A stretch of 32,278 bases of DNA, taken from the NCBI GenBank assembly GCA_017416445.1, contig JAFQCJ010000007.1, positions 1 through 32,278 on the forward strand, given 5' to 3'. The notes below the pieces were generated by a model. That model did not search any database. It was not told where the DNA came from and saw nothing but the letters and a program-made list of their open reading frames with translations. Source of the DNA: Oscillospiraceae bacterium (GTDB lineage: Bacteria; Bacillota; Clostridia; Oscillospirales; Oscillospiraceae). Shown one piece after another: positions 15,353 through 32,205 of the stretch (the first letter of the stretch is position 1; every line of letters starts with the position of its first letter). A program made the position numbers and the translations under genes.

Positions 15353-15934
15353 TTATTCCCGCTCGATGGTCAGCTTACCCTTGATGACAGCACCTCGGGC
15401 CATGGCCATGGTGGCAGCGGTAATATTGCCAGTAATACGGGCGGTAGCTTCCAGTGCAAGAGCACCTCTTACCACAATGTCGCCTACTACATTGCCGGAG
15501 CAGACCATCTCCTCGGCGATGATGTTGCCGGTAACAGTAGCCTTGTCAGAGATGTTCACACTGCCGGAAATCGTGCAGTCGCCGGTCAGGTGGCAGTTGA
15601 CCACATTAAGGCTGGTAGCGGTAATATTACCGGTGGCTGTGGCCCGGAGGGTCACATTTCCGTCAGAGGAGATGTCGCCATTGAAATTGCCGGCGAATTC
15701 CACATCACCCTTGCTGCTGAGCTTACCCTCCAGTGTGGTGCCGGGAGCCAGAAAAGTGGCGGGAACGAGGGTGTAGGGTGCAGCCGGTACCGGCTCTGCC
15801 ACAGAGGCGGCTGCCACTTCGGTACTCAGGGTCTGCTGCTCCACAACGGCTTCTCCCGCAGCGGATTCGAAGCGGCCGGAACCTACGCCGAACACATCAT
15901 AAACGGCCTTGCTGAAATTCTCTTTCTTACTCAT
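15353..15934 (-). CDS. Bactofilin (polymer-forming cytoskeletal protein)
   Basis: Bactofilins polymerise into cytoskeletal filaments that position envelope enzymes. The 193-residue protein has a disordered Ala/Val/Pro/Glu-rich N-terminus (to about residue 60) and then the bactofilin core. There, short strands with regular Gly turns ('GKLSSKGDVEFAGNFNGDI', 'GDCTISGSVNISD', 'GNVVGDIVVRGAL') form a right-handed beta-helix, ending 'ARGAVIKGKLTIERE'. The start at 15934 has GGAGG 7 nt upstream. It lies 45 nt downstream of the deacetylase-like gene on the same strand, so both likely share the promoter at 16913-16941. Confidence 0.9.
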   Translation of the reverse strand: MSKKENFSKAVYDVFGVGSGRFESAAGEAVVEQQTLSTEVAAASVAEPVPAAPYTLVPATFLAPGTTLEGKLSSKGDVEFAGNFNGDISSDGNVTLRATATGNITATSLNVVNCHLTGDCTISGSVNISDKATVTGNIIAEEMVCSGNVVGDIVVRGALALEATARITGNITAATMAMARGAVIKGKLTIERE

Positions 15935-26749: not shown

Positions 26750-27937
26750 TTATTCCAAAATGCGGAAATCTCCCGCGTGGGCGCGGCGAAGGCGCTCCTG
26801 CGCAGCCTGCCCCACTGCCTCCTGCAAGGAGACAATGATGGTATTAGAGAGCAAAAAGCCCTGGGGTGTCAGACGCCAGCCGGCGTCTGTTTTTTCGGCA
26901 AGCCCGTGAGATGCATACTGTACCAGCAGCTTCTCCATAGGCTCAAAGCGCTGGCGATACTGCTGCTCAAAATACCGGCGGTCGATGCCTGCGGTGGTAC
27001 GGAGGGAGAGCATGATGTACTCCTGCATCCGATCCCGCTGAGATATCTCCTCCTGTTCCGAGAGGGCCAGCACACCGCGTATGTAGCTGTGCAGATCCCG
27101 CTGGTAGGCAAAGCGCACATTGCCGAAGTCGGAGTGGGCTCCGGGGCCGAAGCCTGCGTAGGGAAGCATCTGCCAGTATTTCCGATTATGGCGGCTTTCG
27201 AAACCGTCGCGGGCAAAATTGGAGATCTCATACTGACCATAGCCCTTATGGGCAAGATAGTCCACCATCCACAGATACATCTCCGCCTGCATATCATCAT
27301 CAGGAAGAGCGGGATCGTGGCGGCGGGCGTAGAGAGGGGTCCCCTCCTCCACCTTCAGTCCGTAGCAGCTGATGTGTTCTGCCTCCAGGGCTGCGGCGGT
27401 ACGCACGGTGTCCTGCCACTGTTCCAGGGTCTGGTTGGGCAATCCGTAGATGAGATCAAGACTAATATTGGAAAACCCGGCCATCCGCGCCGCTGCCACC
27501 GCATCGGTGACCTGTGAAAAGGTGTGGATGCGGCCGATCTCCTGCAGCAGTGCATCATCGGTAGACTGGACGCCCAGAGAGATGCGGTTGAAGCCTGCCC
27601 GGCGCAGTTTTCGAAGGGCTTTCCAATCTGTGGCGCTGTCGGGGTTACACTCCACGGTGATCTCCGTATCCCGAGCGAGGGAGTAGCGCTTTTTGACCGT
27701 CTTTAAGAGGCTGCAAAGACGCTCGGCTCCCAGATAGGAGGGGGTGCCGCCGCCAAAGTATACGGTATCCACTGTCATTCCTGCGCAGCGGGGCGCCACC
27801 TCTTCCAAATGCGCGATAAGCGCACGGCAGTACTGGTCCATCAGGCCCTCGCTGTGAGGGAGAGAGTAAAAGTCACAATAGGTGCACTTCTGCTTACAAA
27901 AAGGGATATGGATATAAAGTCCCAGTGTCTTACTCAT
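26750..27937 (-). CDS. hemW: Radical SAM protein HemW (heme chaperone type)
   Basis: A 395-residue member of the HemN/HemW radical-SAM family, formerly annotated as oxygen-independent coproporphyrinogen III oxidase. The radical-SAM cluster motif CxxxCxxC is Cys14/Cys18/Cys21 ('FCKQKCTYC'). It is followed by 'YFGGGTPSYL', 'ECNPDS', 'ISLGVQS' and 'DLIYGLPNQT'. The missing HemN N-terminal extension and the length favour HemW, a heme-insertion chaperone, over the oxidase. The start overlaps the upstream ferredoxin stop (ATGA), so both are translated together. Confidence 0.93.
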   Translation of the reverse strand: MSKTLGLYIHIPFCKQKCTYCDFYSLPHSEGLMDQYCRALIAHLEEVAPRCAGMTVDTVYFGGGTPSYLGAERLCSLLKTVKKRYSLARDTEITVECNPDSATDWKALRKLRRAGFNRISLGVQSTDDALLQEIGRIHTFSQVTDAVAAARMAGFSNISLDLIYGLPNQTLEQWQDTVRTAAALEAEHISCYGLKVEEGTPLYARRHDPALPDDDMQAEMYLWMVDYLAHKGYGQYEISNFARDGFESRHNRKYWQMLPYAGFGPGAHSDFGNVRFAYQRDLHSYIRGVLALSEQEEISQRDRMQEYIMLSLRTTAGIDRRYFEQQYRQRFEPMEKLLVQYASHGLAEKTDAGWRLTPQGFLLSNTIIVSLQEAVGQAAQERLRRAHAGDFRILE

Positions 27938-28176
27938 AACAGGGCCTCCTGATGAGAGCGTTGGATCATTTCGATGGCAGACCAGAAACAGTTTCTTTTA
28001 CATTTGCCGCAGCCGATGCACTGCATCTCCTCTGCCGTGTAGAACCCGTCTTGCCGCAGCTTGATGCACTCCATGGGGCAAAATTTAGCGCACCAGCCAC
28101 AGCCTGTACAGCTGACTTCGGAGATGACGGCATATTGCAGGGGCCTGCGCCCAAAGACATTGTATTTCAGATTCAT
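27934..28176 (-). CDS. Two-cluster 4Fe-4S ferredoxin coupled to hemW
   Basis: An 80-residue protein with two 4Fe-4S motifs: Cys23/26/29/33 (CTGCGWCAKFCP) and Cys53/56/59/63 (CIGCGKCKRNC). The Pro normally after the last Cys of the second motif is Phe. A basic tail follows. ATG at 28176 is set by AAGGAGA upstream. The 4-base overlap with hemW suggests a shared function, plausibly electron supply to the radical-SAM centre, but that is inferred from gene order only. Confidence 0.87.
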   Translation of the reverse strand: MNLKYNVFGRRPLQYAVISEVSCTGCGWCAKFCPMECIKLRQDGFYTAEEMQCIGCGKCKRNCFWSAIEMIQRSHQEALL

Positions 28177-28740: not shown

Positions 28741-28779
28741 AATTTGGCCCACTTCGTTTTTAGAAAAGTGGGCCAAATT
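28741..28779 (+). terminator. Stem-loop after spoVAC
   Basis: AATTTGGCCCACTT (28741-28754) pairs with AAGTGGGCCAAATT (28766-28779). The T run is short, so termination may be partial. Confidence 0.6.
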
Positions 28780-28850
28780 TCGTTAGTCTATTGTACTTCC
28801 ATCGAGTAAAAAGTGGTCAGAAGGCTTTTGAACTCTATGTATTTGGGGAG

Positions 28851-28942: not shown

Positions 28943-28983
28943 GTGATCTCATCACAGAACAAGCAGCTGTACTCTGGTAAGAT
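28943..28983 (+). promoter_or_regulatory. Activator-type promoter 1 of the sulfur region
   Basis: The palindrome GTGATCTCATCAC (28943-28955, centre 28949) and a -10 TAAGAT (28978-28983) starting 29 nt from the centre. The -35 position is non-consensus (CAGAAC). It precedes the rhodanese lipoprotein gene. Confidence 0.6.
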
Positions 28984-29054
28984 ACGATCATAGAAATCCC
29001 CAAAAGAGTCGACGGGAACAGAGAGCACTGTCCCGGTTTTAAGGAGGTATCACC

Positions 29055-29447
29055 ATGCGAAAGCTAATACCATTTTTACTTTCTCTGTTGCTCCTGGCAG
29101 GCTGTGCGGCACCTGTGGATTCGGAGGCCAGCTATCAGCAAATCAGTATGGACGAGGCCATCGCCATGATGGAGGAGGAAAGCAATTACATGATCCTGGA
29201 TGTCCGCACTCCGGAGGAGTTTGCCGACAAGCACATTCCGGGTGCCATCAACATCCCCAATGAGACCATCGGCACGGAGGAAATTCCGGAGCTGCCGGAC
29301 AAAGAACAGTTGATTCTGGTATACTGCCGCAGCGGAAACCGCAGCAAGCAGGCCTCGGACAAGCTGGTGGGTTTGGGTTACACGAACATTGTGGAGTTCG
29401 GCGGTATCAACGACTGGCCGGGCGAAACTGTCTCTGATGGCGAGTAA
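29055..29447 (+). CDS. Rhodanese-domain lipoprotein
   Basis: A 130-residue surface lipoprotein. The signal peptide ends at the lipobox 'LLAGC' (Cys17) and is followed by a single rhodanese domain with 'LDVRTPEEFADKHIPGAINIP' and the active-site loop 'CRSGNRS' (Cys91). Rhodaneses carry sulfane sulfur as a Cys persulfide, and this one would work outside the membrane. AAGGAGG precedes the ATG. It is separated from the thioredoxin gene by a second copy of the regulatory palindrome. Confidence 0.9.
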   Translation: MRKLIPFLLSLLLLAGCAAPVDSEASYQQISMDEAIAMMEEESNYMILDVRTPEEFADKHIPGAINIPNETIGTEEIPELPDKEQLILVYCRSGNRSKQASDKLVGLGYTNIVEFGGINDWPGETVSDGE

Positions 29448-29458
29448 GCACAGTTTAG

Positions 29459-29499
29459 GTGATGTCATCACGGAAACGCAGCCAGCATCCGGCTATGAT
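29459..29499 (+). promoter_or_regulatory. Activator-type promoter 2 of the sulfur region
   Basis: A perfect palindrome GTGATGTCATCAC (29459-29471, centre 29465), then TATGAT (29494-29499), 29 nt from centre to -10. The -35 position reads CGGAAA. It precedes the thioredoxin-rhodanese-flavoprotein operon. Confidence 0.65.
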
Positions 29500-29532
29500 A
29501 GAGCCATAAAGAAAAACAAGGAGGATTTAAAT

Positions 29533-29838
29533 ATGTCCGCTATCAATATCAACAAGAACAACTTCCAGAACGAAGTGATGAATTCCGATAAGCCCGTCCT
29601 TCTGGACTTCTGGGCCCCCTGGTGCGGCCCCTGCCGCATGGTCGTCCCCATCGTGGAGGAGATTGCCAAAGAGCGTAGTGATATCAAAGTCGGTAAGGTG
29701 AATGTGGACGAGCAGCCGGAGCTGGCCAGCCAGTTTGGTGTGATGAGCATTCCTACTTTGGTTGTCATGAAGGACGGCAAGATCGTCAATCAGGCCATGG
29801 GCGCAAGACCCAAGAATGCGATTCTCGGGATGCTGTAA
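29533..29838 (+). CDS. Thioredoxin
   Basis: A 101-residue thioredoxin with the active site WCGPC (Cys31, Cys34), the conserved cis-Pro loop 'MSIPTLVVMKDGK', and the C-terminal helix ending 'AILGML'. In this operon it most likely reduces persulfides or disulfides on the adjacent rhodaneses and flavoprotein, rather than serving as the general thioredoxin. ATG at 29533 has AAGGAGG upstream. First gene of a tight three-gene operon. Confidence 0.93.
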   Translation: MSAININKNNFQNEVMNSDKPVLLDFWAPWCGPCRMVVPIVEEIAKERSDIKVGKVNVDEQPELASQFGVMSIPTLVVMKDGKIVNQAMGARPKNAILGML

Positions 29839-29850
29839 GGAAGTGTGACG

Positions 29851-30171
29851 ATGGGATTCTTTGATTTCTTCAAACAGGCCGATATCAATCAGGGTGTAAA
29901 GGAATACACTGCCACTCCCGGTGCTGTTCTGCTGGATGTCCGTACCTCTGAGGAGTACAGGGGCGGCCACATCCCCGGCAGCAAAAATGTTCCGCTTTCG
30001 TCGATTGACAAGATTGCTTCTGTGGCAGAAAATAAAGATACGGCACTGTTTGTCTACTGCTACTCCGGTGCCCGCAGCCGTCAGGCTGTCGGTCTGCTGC
30101 AGCGTATGGGGTATCGTAATGTAACCAACATCGGAGGGATTGCCGCTTATGCGGGGAACGTGGAGGTCTGA
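29851..30171 (+). CDS. Single-domain rhodanese
   Basis: A 106-residue cytoplasmic sulfurtransferase with 'LLDVRTSEEYRGGHIPGSKNVP' and the active-site loop 'CYSGARS' (Cys70). ATG at 29851 is preferred over GTG at 29845 from the AAGGAAG ribosome-site spacing. It starts 12 nt after thioredoxin, and its stop is immediately followed by the next start, so translation is probably coupled. Confidence 0.92.
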   Translation: MGFFDFFKQADINQGVKEYTATPGAVLLDVRTSEEYRGGHIPGSKNVPLSSIDKIASVAENKDTALFVYCYSGARSRQAVGLLQRMGYRNVTNIGGIAAYAGNVEV

Positions 30172-31863
30172 ATGAAAGTTGTGATCGTAGGCGGTGTAGC
30201 TGGCGGAGCCACAGCCGCAGCAAGAATCCGCAGACTGGATGAGAAGGCGGAGATCGTGGTGTTCGAGCGTTCAGGCTTTGTTTCCTACGCCAACTGCGGT
30301 CTTCCCTACTACATCGGGGATGTCATCACCGATCCGGAAGAACTGACCCTCCAGACACCGGAGAGCTTTTTCTCCCGGTTCCGCGTGAACATGAAGGTTC
30401 GCCACGAAGTAACCGCCATCCATCCGGATCGCAAGACGGTTTCTGTGAAGAATCTGGAAACCGGCGAGGAATTTGAGGAGAACTATGACAAGCTGATCCT
30501 GTCCCCCGGGGCAAAGCCGACCCAGCCACGGCTCCCCGGTGTTGGGTTGAGCAAGCTGTTCACGCTGCGTACCGTGGAGGATACCTTCCGAATCAAAGAG
30601 TACATAAACACGCATCATCCCAGGTCCGTTGTGCTGGCAGGCGGCGGCTTTATCGGTCTGGAACTGGCGGAAAATCTGCGGGAGCTTGGCATGGAAGTTA
30701 CCATCGTCCAGCGCCCCAAGCAGCTGATGAACCCCTTTGACGCGGATATGGCGTCCTTTATCCACGCGGAGGTGCGTAAACACGGCGTGAAGCTGGCCCT
30801 CGGCTATACCGTGGAGGGATTTGAGGAAAAGGACGGCGGCGTGGATGTGCTGCTGAAGGACAACGCCCCTCTCCATGCAGATATGGTGGTGCTGGCCATC
30901 GGCGTCACGCCGGACACCGCACTGGCGAAGGAAGCCGGACTGGAACTGGGTATCAAGGGCAGCATTGTGGTCAATGACCGGATGGAAACCTCTGTATCCG
31001 ATATCTACGCCGCAGGCGATGCGGTGCAGGTGAAGCACTCTGTCACCGGAGAGGACACCTTGATCTCTCTGGCCGGTCCCGCAAACAAGCAGGGGCGGAT
31101 CATTGCGGACAATATCTGCGGCGGCGGCAGCCGCTATCTGGGTTCTCAGGGCAGCAGCGTCATCAAGGTGTTTGACATGACGGCCGCCACCACCGGCATC
31201 AACGAAACCACCGCGAAAAAGGCCGGTCTGGATGTGGATAAGGTGATCCTGTCCCCCATGAGCCACGCAGGATACTACCCTGGCGGAAAGCTGATGACCA
31301 TGAAGGTGGTCTTTGAGAAAGAGACTTACCGCCTGTTAGGCGCTCAAATCGTGGGTTATGAGGGCGTGGATAAGCGGATCGATGTGCTGGCCACTGCCAT
31401 CCATGCGGGCCTGAAAGCTACCCAGCTGAAAAATCTGGATCTGGCCTATGCACCGCCCTATTCCTCTGCCAAGGACCCTGTGAACATGGCGGGATTCATG
31501 ATCGACAACCTTGCAAACGGCACCATGAAGCAGTGGTATCTGGAGGAGATTGACCATCTCCCAAGGGACGGCAGCGCCATCCTGCTGGATGCCAGAACAC
31601 CGGAGGAATACGCGGCAGGCCATATGGACGGCTTCCGCAACATTCCTGTGGATGAGTTGCGGGAGCGCATCCATGAGGTCGAGTCTGGCAAGCCGGTGTA
31701 TGTAATCTGCCAGAGCGGCCTGCGCAGCTACATTGCCTGCCGCATTCTGGAGGCTAACGGCCACGAAGCCTACAATTTTGCAGGCGGTTTCCGTTTCTAT
31801 GATGCGGTGGTCAATGACCGGGCGTTGATTGAAAAAGCGTATTCCTGCGGCATGGACCAATAA
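30172..31863 (+). CDS. CoA-disulfide/persulfide reductase with C-terminal rhodanese domain
   Basis: A 563-residue flavoprotein of the pyridine nucleotide-disulfide family. It has an N-terminal FAD motif 'GGVAGGATAAARIRRLD', the single redox Cys42 in 'SYANCGLPYYIG' as in CoA-disulfide reductase, an NAD(P)H motif 'LAGGGFIGLELAENL', and FAD contact 'DIYAAGDAVQV'. The last 100 residues are a rhodanese domain with Cys513 in 'CQSGLRS'. Family members of this fused type reduce CoA or protein persulfides and polysulfide. GGAGG lies 6 nt before the ATG, overlapping the rhodanese gene end. It likely works with both rhodaneses and thioredoxin. Confidence 0.92.
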   Translation: MKVVIVGGVAGGATAAARIRRLDEKAEIVVFERSGFVSYANCGLPYYIGDVITDPEELTLQTPESFFSRFRVNMKVRHEVTAIHPDRKTVSVKNLETGEEFEENYDKLILSPGAKPTQPRLPGVGLSKLFTLRTVEDTFRIKEYINTHHPRSVVLAGGGFIGLELAENLRELGMEVTIVQRPKQLMNPFDADMASFIHAEVRKHGVKLALGYTVEGFEEKDGGVDVLLKDNAPLHADMVVLAIGVTPDTALAKEAGLELGIKGSIVVNDRMETSVSDIYAAGDAVQVKHSVTGEDTLISLAGPANKQGRIIADNICGGGSRYLGSQGSSVIKVFDMTAATTGINETTAKKAGLDVDKVILSPMSHAGYYPGGKLMTMKVVFEKETYRLLGAQIVGYEGVDKRIDVLATAIHAGLKATQLKNLDLAYAPPYSSAKDPVNMAGFMIDNLANGTMKQWYLEEIDHLPRDGSAILLDARTPEEYAAGHMDGFRNIPVDELRERIHEVESGKPVYVICQSGLRSYIACRILEANGHEAYNFAGGFRFYDAVVNDRALIEKAYSCGMDQ

Positions 31864-31877
31864 CTGCAAACTTACAG

Positions 31878-31910
31878 AGCCACGCTTTCCATCGGGAAAG
31901 CGTGGCTTTT
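31878..31910 (+). terminator. Terminator of the sulfur operon
   Basis: AGCCACGCTTTCC (31878-31890) pairs with GGAAAGCGTGGCT (31895-31907), followed by TTT. Confidence 0.85.
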
Positions 31911-31925
31911 CTGCTGTTCCAAAAG

Positions 31926-31966
31926 GTGATGTCATCACAGAAGAATCGTCTTCCCTTTGTTATCAT
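31926..31966 (+). promoter_or_regulatory. Activator-type promoter 3
   Basis: A perfect palindrome GTGATGTCATCAC (31926-31938, centre 31932), then TATCAT (31961-31966), 29 nt from the centre. The -35 position reads CAGAAG. It precedes the polyferredoxin operon. Confidence 0.65.
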
Positions 31967-31995
31967 AAAGCCAATCTGATACAGGGAGGATGTAT

Positions 31996-32205
31996 ATGGT
32001 CGTTGCCAGAAAAAAGAGAAAAGCCTTTGTTGCGCAGGGGGATTGCGTTGCCTGCGGCTGTTGTGTGAAAGTCTGTCCTCTGGGCGCAATTCAGGTCGTA
32101 AAAGGCATTATGGCGCAGGTGAATATGGACAAATGCGTAGGCTGTGGGAAGTGCGCAAAGGAATGCCCCGCCAGCGTCATCGAGATTCGGGAGGTGGATG
32201 CATGA
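31996..32205 (+). CDS. Two-cluster 4Fe-4S ferredoxin
   Basis: A 69-residue protein with Cys17/20/23/27 and Cys47/50/53/57, both with the terminal Pro typical of bacterial 2[4Fe-4S] ferredoxins, plus an extra Cys22. The N-terminus is strongly basic. ATG at 31996 is preferred over 31990 because GGGAGG would abut the earlier ATG. It overlaps the next gene by 4 nt (ATGA). It shares its promoter type with the sulfur operon and is probably an electron carrier for the membrane protein that follows. Confidence 0.9.
   Translation: MVVARKKRKAFVAQGDCVACGCCVKVCPLGAIQVVKGIMAQVNMDKCVGCGKCAKECPASVIEIREVDA

Follow-up and report, generated by a model that had tools for sequence, protein, structure and literature searches.

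A CRP-type palindrome with a five-base-pair spacer at predicted class II promoters of thioredoxin, rhodanese and ferredoxin genes in Clostridia

CRP and FNR activate the σA polymerase at class II promoters, where CRP sites centre near -41.5. FNR, an oxygen sensor with a [4Fe-4S] cluster, acts as a dimer on TTGAT-N4-ATCAA sites, activates by the class II route and holds its cluster through N-terminal cysteines and one internal cysteine. Redox genes are also controlled by Rex, a member of a protein family different from CRP/FNR, whose site TTGTGAAW4TTCACAA also contains GTGA and TCAC, but with a 6-bp spacer (N6) and a different core; the portions of the Rex literature drawn on here describe it as a repressor. 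E. coli CRP and T. thermophilus SdrP (TTHA1359) bind TGTGA-N6-TCACA, CRP with the recognition helix SRETVGR (PMC8465061). The same paper reports no detectable binding of SdrP when the spacer is 5 or 7 bp, and a greater tolerance of E. coli CRP. Here we describe a stretch of 32,278 nucleotides (hereafter the window) from an Oscillospiraceae bacterium (GCA_017416445.1, contig JAFQCJ010000007.1), in which three palindromes (operators 1 to 3; Table 1) carry the GTGA/TCAC half-sites of CRP and SdrP at a 5-bp spacing (N5), each upstream of a predicted promoter.

Operators 1 to 3 are probably (roughly 0.77) bound by a CRP/FNR protein encoded on another contig, C67 (hereafter the regulator), which would act as a class II activator recruiting the σA polymerase in response to a thiol-redox signal. 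Comparison of sequences directly shows the site, its fixed register, the genes that it precedes and its tie to the gene of the regulator, and we infer activation rather than repression, σA as the sigma factor and a cysteine thiol as the origin of the signal. While the CRP/FNR superfamily and the class II logic were already known, the 5-bp spacer as a family rule appears to be new within the literature searched.

Operator and promoter geometry

The genome is a draft of 1,138,366 bases in 75 contigs and is 66% complete. A sequence-only reading of the window had placed three palindromes at 28943, 29459 and 31926, one of them with a single change, and they were found at exactly these positions, with the consensus GTGAT(C/G)TCATCAC. 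As it had also proposed, the palindrome centre lies 29 nt ahead of the first base of TAAGAT, TATGAT or TATCAT at all three sites, and at -41 relative to the predicted starts. From the last palindrome base, operators 1, 2 and 3 read CAGAA, CGGAA and CAGAA. This C(A/G)GAA had been taken to replace the -35 element; the sequence is as described, but what lies there is a remnant -35 in degraded form, partly covered by the palindrome, and not a complete loss of the element, the conserved GA of RGAA at -33/-32 coinciding with the GA of the consensus TTGACA, and C and A/G occupying -35/-34.

Allowing up to two mismatches, the palindrome gave nine strand-matches in the window against 0.76 expected, a count that none of 100 shuffles reached; the nine comprise operators 1 to 3 on both strands (six), a palindrome at 30317 on both strands (two) and one match at 15381. 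The 30317 palindrome (GGGATGTCATCAC) was set aside as an operator, as it lies inside the CoA-disulfide reductase gene. At up to one mismatch, the whole genome held operators 1 to 3, the 30317 palindrome and single matches on contigs C27 and C67 (C67:8178), and the latter two were rejected because they did not match the full promoter pattern even at two mismatches. When the -10 geometry was also required, as in the scan that the earlier reading had called for, the genome-wide matches without mismatch were operators 1 to 3 only; at two mismatches there were two further matches, against one in the reversed control. Chance palindromes were ruled out by the window shuffle test together with reversed-pattern controls, which gave 0 in the genus, the order and the orthologue loci.

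GTDB species genomes were then scanned with a six-orthologue alignment, and the best 80 of at least 569 loci were kept (1.02 Mb, 67-74% identical), the titles of which name Oscillospiraceae, Lachnospiraceae and other Clostridia. Exact GTGAT-N3-ATCAC occurred 82 times in these best 80 loci, whereas each of nine other spacings tried occurred 0-2 times. With the shorter half-sites, GTGA-N5-TCAC was found 127 times versus 11 for N6, a count that falls among those of the other spacings (2-17). On these counts, the operator keeps the GTGA/TCAC pair of CRP sites but sets the two halves 5 bp apart rather than 6, and the predominant site lacks the even 14-bp core GTGA-N6-TCAC of the canonical CRP operator. 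The earlier reading had set the odd-length palindrome apart from the usual CRP and FNR sites; this is corrected here in that its half-sites are of CRP type. After removal of two loci on contigs already in the set (L072 and L083), the remaining 78 loci contained 93 copies of GTGA-N5-TCAC followed by N22 and TANNNT, versus none in the reversed sequence, and the site was present in 59 of them. In a grid over these 78 loci that combined half-site spacings of N2-N9 with -10 distances of 16-28 (hexamer TATVHT), a single peak of 76 stood at N5 with a gap of 22; N5 with a gap of 21 gave 7, and all other cells gave 2 or fewer.

Pooling the 78 loci with the window and nine loci from its own genome and genus (L059-L067) yielded 109 distinct sites in 68 of 88 loci; cultured bacteria among the hosts of these sites include Anaerobutyricum hallii DSM 3353, Blautia schinkii and Oscillibacter valericigenes. 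The GTGA, TCAC and TANNNT columns of this profile were fixed by selection, while the other columns were free. Upstream, the free columns showed Y at -43 and W at -41, a predominance of A at -39, and RGAA at -34 to -31; downstream, G-14 occurred in 88 sites (an extended -10), T-10 in 94, C-1 in 81 and A+1 in 101. Promoter duplication was ruled out as the source of the pattern, since the spacers of the three window promoters are 22-50% identical and 91 of the 109 pooled sites are non-redundant. The sites thus combine a centre at -41 of the predicted start, a poor, overlapped -35 and a fixed -10 distance, in agreement with the class II geometry near -41.5 that the earlier reading had suggested.

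The same protein might instead be a repressor, its operator over the -35 region blocking the polymerase until thiol stress releases it. Such a role would suit a downstream half-site with its last base at -35, within the -35 element, and redox switches are often repressors. However, the bare promoter should be weak, with C and A/G instead of TT at -35/-34, and a roadblock needs neither a register fixed to one base nor an extended -10. Because the one-base-exact register comes together with a poor -35 and a good extended -10, activation is favored, and we regard repression as unlikely. We give hardly any credence to a third reading, in which the conserved block is the -35 element of an unusual sigma factor and not an operator: CRGAA is indeed conserved at the -35 position and faintly resembles the GGAAC elements of ECF sigma factors, but the inverted repeat extends to -47, far past a -35 element, and the -10 is close to an ordinary TATAAT preceded by the extended -10 G, with an A as the predicted start.

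A minority of sites have the 6-bp spacer. Three lie in the genome of the window, at C67:15708 (thioredoxin), C67:14510 (DUF6132-like gene, with a gap of 23) and C16:16187 (an operon like that of rhodanese and CoA-disulfide reductase), and these variants read GTGACTTTT(A/G)TCAC-AGAA. A related genome, G021, has one N6 site ahead of a like operon (gene names by eye). When RGAA and the -10 were required, the window and 91 loci held 104 N5 sites versus 2 N6 sites, both of the latter in the genome of the window; the other two of the four came from the genus-wide genome scan. Three of these four N6 sites keep the 22-nt gap at their downstream half, with the one-base shift falling on the upstream half, a pattern suggesting that the subunit nearer the polymerase would be the one held in register. 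The N6 variants are T-rich (L059:14510-14552, L059:15708-15749, L154 and L155).

The candidate regulator and its co-occurrence with the operator

Four proteins of the genome matched the CRP-type helix-turn-helix family, two of them above the cut-off; the match on C67 was the best, that on C18 also lay above the cut-off and those on C65 and C27 lay below it. The C67 gene was chosen over the others because it tracked the motif. It encodes a protein of 219 amino acids (G000:C67:14615-15271), on a contig other than that of the window, and is located between a gene for a DUF6132-like small membrane protein (assigned by eye) and a thioredoxin gene; a relative of the DUF6132-like protein in L066 matched DUF6132 below the cut-off only. 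The earlier reading had advised looking beyond the window for a CRP/FNR or other activator gene, and the C67 gene is the candidate found. Matches to PF00027 (5.1e-8) and PF13545 (4.3e-18), both above cut-off, indicate a cNMP-binding-like domain and a Crp-type winged helix-turn-helix and place the protein in the CRP/FNR superfamily. The recognition helix R183-E184-xxx-R188 was present in all 84 close and all 3 distant regulator proteins (87/87); this RExxxR helix is of CRP type and would fit GTGA half-sites. Three cysteines of the effector domain, C44, C78 and C84, were equally invariant (84/84 close and 3/3 distant proteins); no other cysteine was conserved.

The regulator scored 35 bits against the curated CRP model (cut-off 266) and 39.8 bits against the FNR model (cut-off 228). 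It shares the superfamily with FNR but is without the N-terminal cysteine cluster of the latter, no conserved cysteine being found before residue 44 in the aligned regulators. Its SASC stretch presumably occupies the position of the phosphate cassette of CRP. We also take the regulator to be outside the persulfide-sensor families CstR, SqrR/BigR and FisR; what is observed here are its invariant cysteines and its rhodanese and CoA-disulfide reductase targets.

The closest solved chain is PDB 3dv8, the CRP/FNR-family protein EUBREC_1222 of Eubacterium rectale from structural genomics, which aligned over residues 2-217 with an E value of 9e-101 and is 68% identical in the Foldseek alignment; C44, C78 and C84 all have counterparts in it, and its helix reads REVxTR. 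An AlphaFold model of the regulator (mean pLDDT 80.5, pTM 0.56) matched 3dv8 at 1.9e-25. Confidence of the model was lowest at residues 81-89, which include C84, and the model is therefore uninformative on cysteine contacts. In the literature listed for 3dv8 or EUBREC_1222, no function, operator, regulon or signal was found; the protein served there as a modelling template for PgRsp of Porphyromonas gingivalis. PgRsp is described as a redox-sensing, heme-binding CRP/FNR member for which 3dv8 was the best modelling template (PMC6955866). As set beside the regulator by that description, PgRsp differs in its direct targets, the hmu and bcp promoters, and its heme ligands are unresolved there (PMC6955866). 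The activator had been suggested as perhaps of a new or unassigned type: it is not a new type of protein, but belongs to a CRP/FNR subfamily with a solved structure for which no assigned function was found.

The bare palindrome, without a -10, gave 24 matches in 19 of 60 genomes (the genome of the window and 59 relatives); 19 of the matches were in the genus, 10 of them recurring with the promoter pattern, and 5 were outside it. The palindrome with NGAA and the -10 at up to one mismatch occurred in 7 of 32 genus genomes, versus none for the reversed pattern. Regulator orthologues at least 57% identical were found in 6 of the 32, all of them among the 7 motif genomes and none among the 25 non-motif genomes (p=7.7e-6); the seventh motif genome, G021, is 78% complete. 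A pattern with variable spacer and gap, chosen post hoc after the data had been seen, occurred in 9 of 32 genus genomes (reversed, 0), 8 of which also hold a relative of the regulator at any level of identity (9 genus genomes do). In a sample of 295 genomes of the order, with the regulator family taken as E values up to 1e-15, the strict pattern was present in 36 genomes (reversed, 0) and the regulator family in 114; the family was found in 32 of the 36 motif genomes versus 82 of the 259 non-motif genomes (p=3.9e-11). Because the genomes share ancestry, the genus and order p values overstate the strength of the association. In several genomes the site lies less than 100 bases from the regulator gene (G010:C24, G016:C2 and G031:C46), and two genomes with 42%-identical relatives also carry an N5 site, which in G008 is some 1.6 kb away from the regulator and in G019 is on another contig. 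The earlier proposal of a CRP/FNR-type activator is borne out by this co-occurrence of such a gene with the motif, in 6 of the 7 motif-bearing genus genomes and 32 of the 36 in the order sample.

Another factor could bind the palindrome, with the CRP/FNR gene being merely a conserved neighbor of redox genes. The regulator gene often adjoins thioredoxin, thioredoxin reductase and DUF6132-like genes, an adjacency that by itself would explain part of the association, and four of the 36 motif genomes gave no detected regulator. However, the GTGA half-site and the RExxxR helix are both of CRP type, sites in the genome of the window also lie on contigs other than that of the regulator (the window and C16), the co-occurrence holds across the order, and the four exceptions are drafts of 63-91% completeness. 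On a co-occurrence analysis that covered this regulator family, we consider a different binding factor improbable.

Several observations weigh against binding and class II activation by the regulator as proposed here. Within the DNA examined, 19 of 78 orthologue loci had no site, and the strict pattern was missing from 82 of the 114 order-sample genomes in which the regulator family occurs; conversely, the regulator went undetected in the four draft motif genomes of the order just mentioned. If three relatives of 42-43% identity are also counted (9 genomes with any relative), the genus association weakens to p=5.8e-4. The three N6 sites in the genome of the window mean that N5 is not obligatory, or that a second regulator is involved, and the three cysteines could instead hold an Fe-S cluster or heme.

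Target genes and proposed mechanism

Targets were taken as the first gene within 450 nt downstream of each of the 109 sites, identified by tblastn of reference proteins. Thioredoxin was the most frequent (48), followed by short-chain dehydrogenase (15), ferredoxin (11), small rhodanese (7), thioredoxin reductase (6), rhodanese lipoprotein (5), DUF6132-like protein (5), rubredoxin (3), desulfoferrodoxin (1) and the regulator itself (1); the other 7 sites led to none of these. Thus, 102 of the 109 sites lead into a single gene set, and the comparison upholds a regulon joining sulfur and thiol handling with ferredoxin genes, which the earlier reading had put forward as one of persulfide handling and polyferredoxin electron transfer. 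In G008 and G019, a site stands ahead of a gene resembling the ferredoxin-thioredoxin reductase beta chain, the G008 protein matching PF02943 at 1.6e-5; the order downstream in G008 is, by eye, ferredoxin, membrane protein and thioredoxin. Such a reductase-like gene under the motif is a plausible reason for the presence of ferredoxins in a thioredoxin regulon. Both genes are small (L069 in G008, L156 in G019), and L069 may represent a ferredoxin-driven thioredoxin system. Outside the usual targets, one site (L130:3301) lies upstream of an open reading frame resembling, by eye, a P-type ATPase with a heavy-metal domain. At L028:2256-3098 on the minus strand, a dinitrogenase iron-molybdenum-cofactor-type domain (PF02579) is fused to an FKBP domain, and this gene adjoins a second thioredoxin.

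In the mechanism that we propose, a regulator dimer would bind two GTGA half-sites 5 bp apart, or 6 bp apart in the minority form, and would be centred at -41, or at -41.5 where a 6-bp form leaves the distance to the -10 unchanged. The downstream half-site would overlap the degraded -35, and the regulator would recruit the σA polymerase to an extended -10 promoter in the class II manner. The signal may be thiol oxidation or persulfidation of C44, C78 or C84, a suggestion made because of the target genes and the three invariant cysteines. Our best reading is thus of a thiol-redox-responsive, possibly persulfide-responsive, class II activator. It is conceivable, though we hold this wider picture to be doubtful, that the regulator represents a widespread CRP/FNR subfamily of gut Clostridia, with a contracted N5 operator that puts the dimer axis on a base pair, persulfide or disulfide sensing through the three cysteines, and a dedicated thioredoxin, rhodanese and ferredoxin regulon under class II activation, in which the downstream half is locked to the polymerase while its upstream partner is free to shift by one base (N6).

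In the open-licence PMC literature, the matches listed included no CRP-type operator for which a 5-bp spacer is the family rule, and the motif strings retrieved unrelated papers only; among the papers listed on 5-bp spacers, the term itself stands in PMC8465061 alone. Nor was anything relevant listed for CRP/FNR with persulfide, for thioredoxin, rhodanese and Clostridia, or for Lachnospiraceae and desulfoferrodoxin. The subfamily is not treated in the accessible parts of PMC12531629 and PMC12937710, and RedB has a different, non-palindromic site (PMC9603854). The present comparison would provide an orphan crystal structure of a gut bacterial protein with a binding site, a promoter logic and a set of targets; the N5 operators challenge the idea that CRP/FNR half-sites need a separation of exactly 6 bp, and the regulon hints at a route by which strict gut anaerobes could detect thiol, oxygen or sulfide stress.

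Genes and other features of the window

Operator 1 precedes the rhodanese lipoprotein gene (29055), operator 2 the operon of thioredoxin, rhodanese and CoA-disulfide reductase/rhodanese (29533-31863), and operator 3 the ferredoxin gene (31996), which is followed by a truncated membrane protein (Table 1). The L065:9818-10462 protein, which the latter resembles, matched Fer4_5 below the cut-off only.

Table 1. Operators, predicted promoter elements and genes at the right end of the window
Feature	Position	Strand	Description
Operator 1	28943..28955	+	GTGATCTCATCAC (one change), GTGA-N5-TCAC, centre 28949; promoter geometry with 0 mismatches
-10 hexamer TAAGAT	28978..28983	+	22 nt past operator 1; predicted start A at 28990
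Rhodanese-domain protein, lipoprotein-like signal (LLAGC)	29055..29447	+	Pfam Rhodanese 1.1e-18; lipobox by eye
Operator 2	29459..29471	+	GTGATGTCATCAC, centre 29465; promoter geometry with 0 mismatches
-10 hexamer TATGAT	29494..29499	+	22 nt past operator 2; predicted start A at 29506
Thioredoxin	29533..29838	+	TIGR01068 1.2e-36, above cut-off
Small rhodanese-domain protein	29851..30171	+	Pfam Rhodanese 1.0e-18
CoA-disulfide reductase-like flavoprotein, C-terminal rhodanese domain	30172..31863	+	TIGR03385 2.2e-154, below cut-off; Rhodanese 1.3e-13
Operator 3	31926..31938	+	GTGATGTCATCAC, centre 31932; promoter geometry with 0 mismatches
-10 hexamer TATCAT	31961..31966	+	22 nt past operator 3; predicted start A at 31973
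2x[4Fe-4S] ferredoxin	31996..32205	+	Pfam Fer4 1.2e-13, two stretches
Membrane protein start, cut at contig end	32202..32278	+	By eye resembles L065:9818-10462, possible polyferredoxin

Between the CoA-disulfide reductase gene and operator 3, a GC-rich inverted repeat followed by T's (31878-31912) looks by eye like an intrinsic terminator, and the ferredoxin unit would therefore have its own promoter. A long inverted repeat at 28741-28783, 3' of a SpoVAC-like gene and 5' of operator 1, is likewise terminator-like by eye. Further upstream, a HemN-type radical SAM protein gene on the minus strand (26750-28176) adjoins a small two-cluster ferredoxin gene on the opposite strand.

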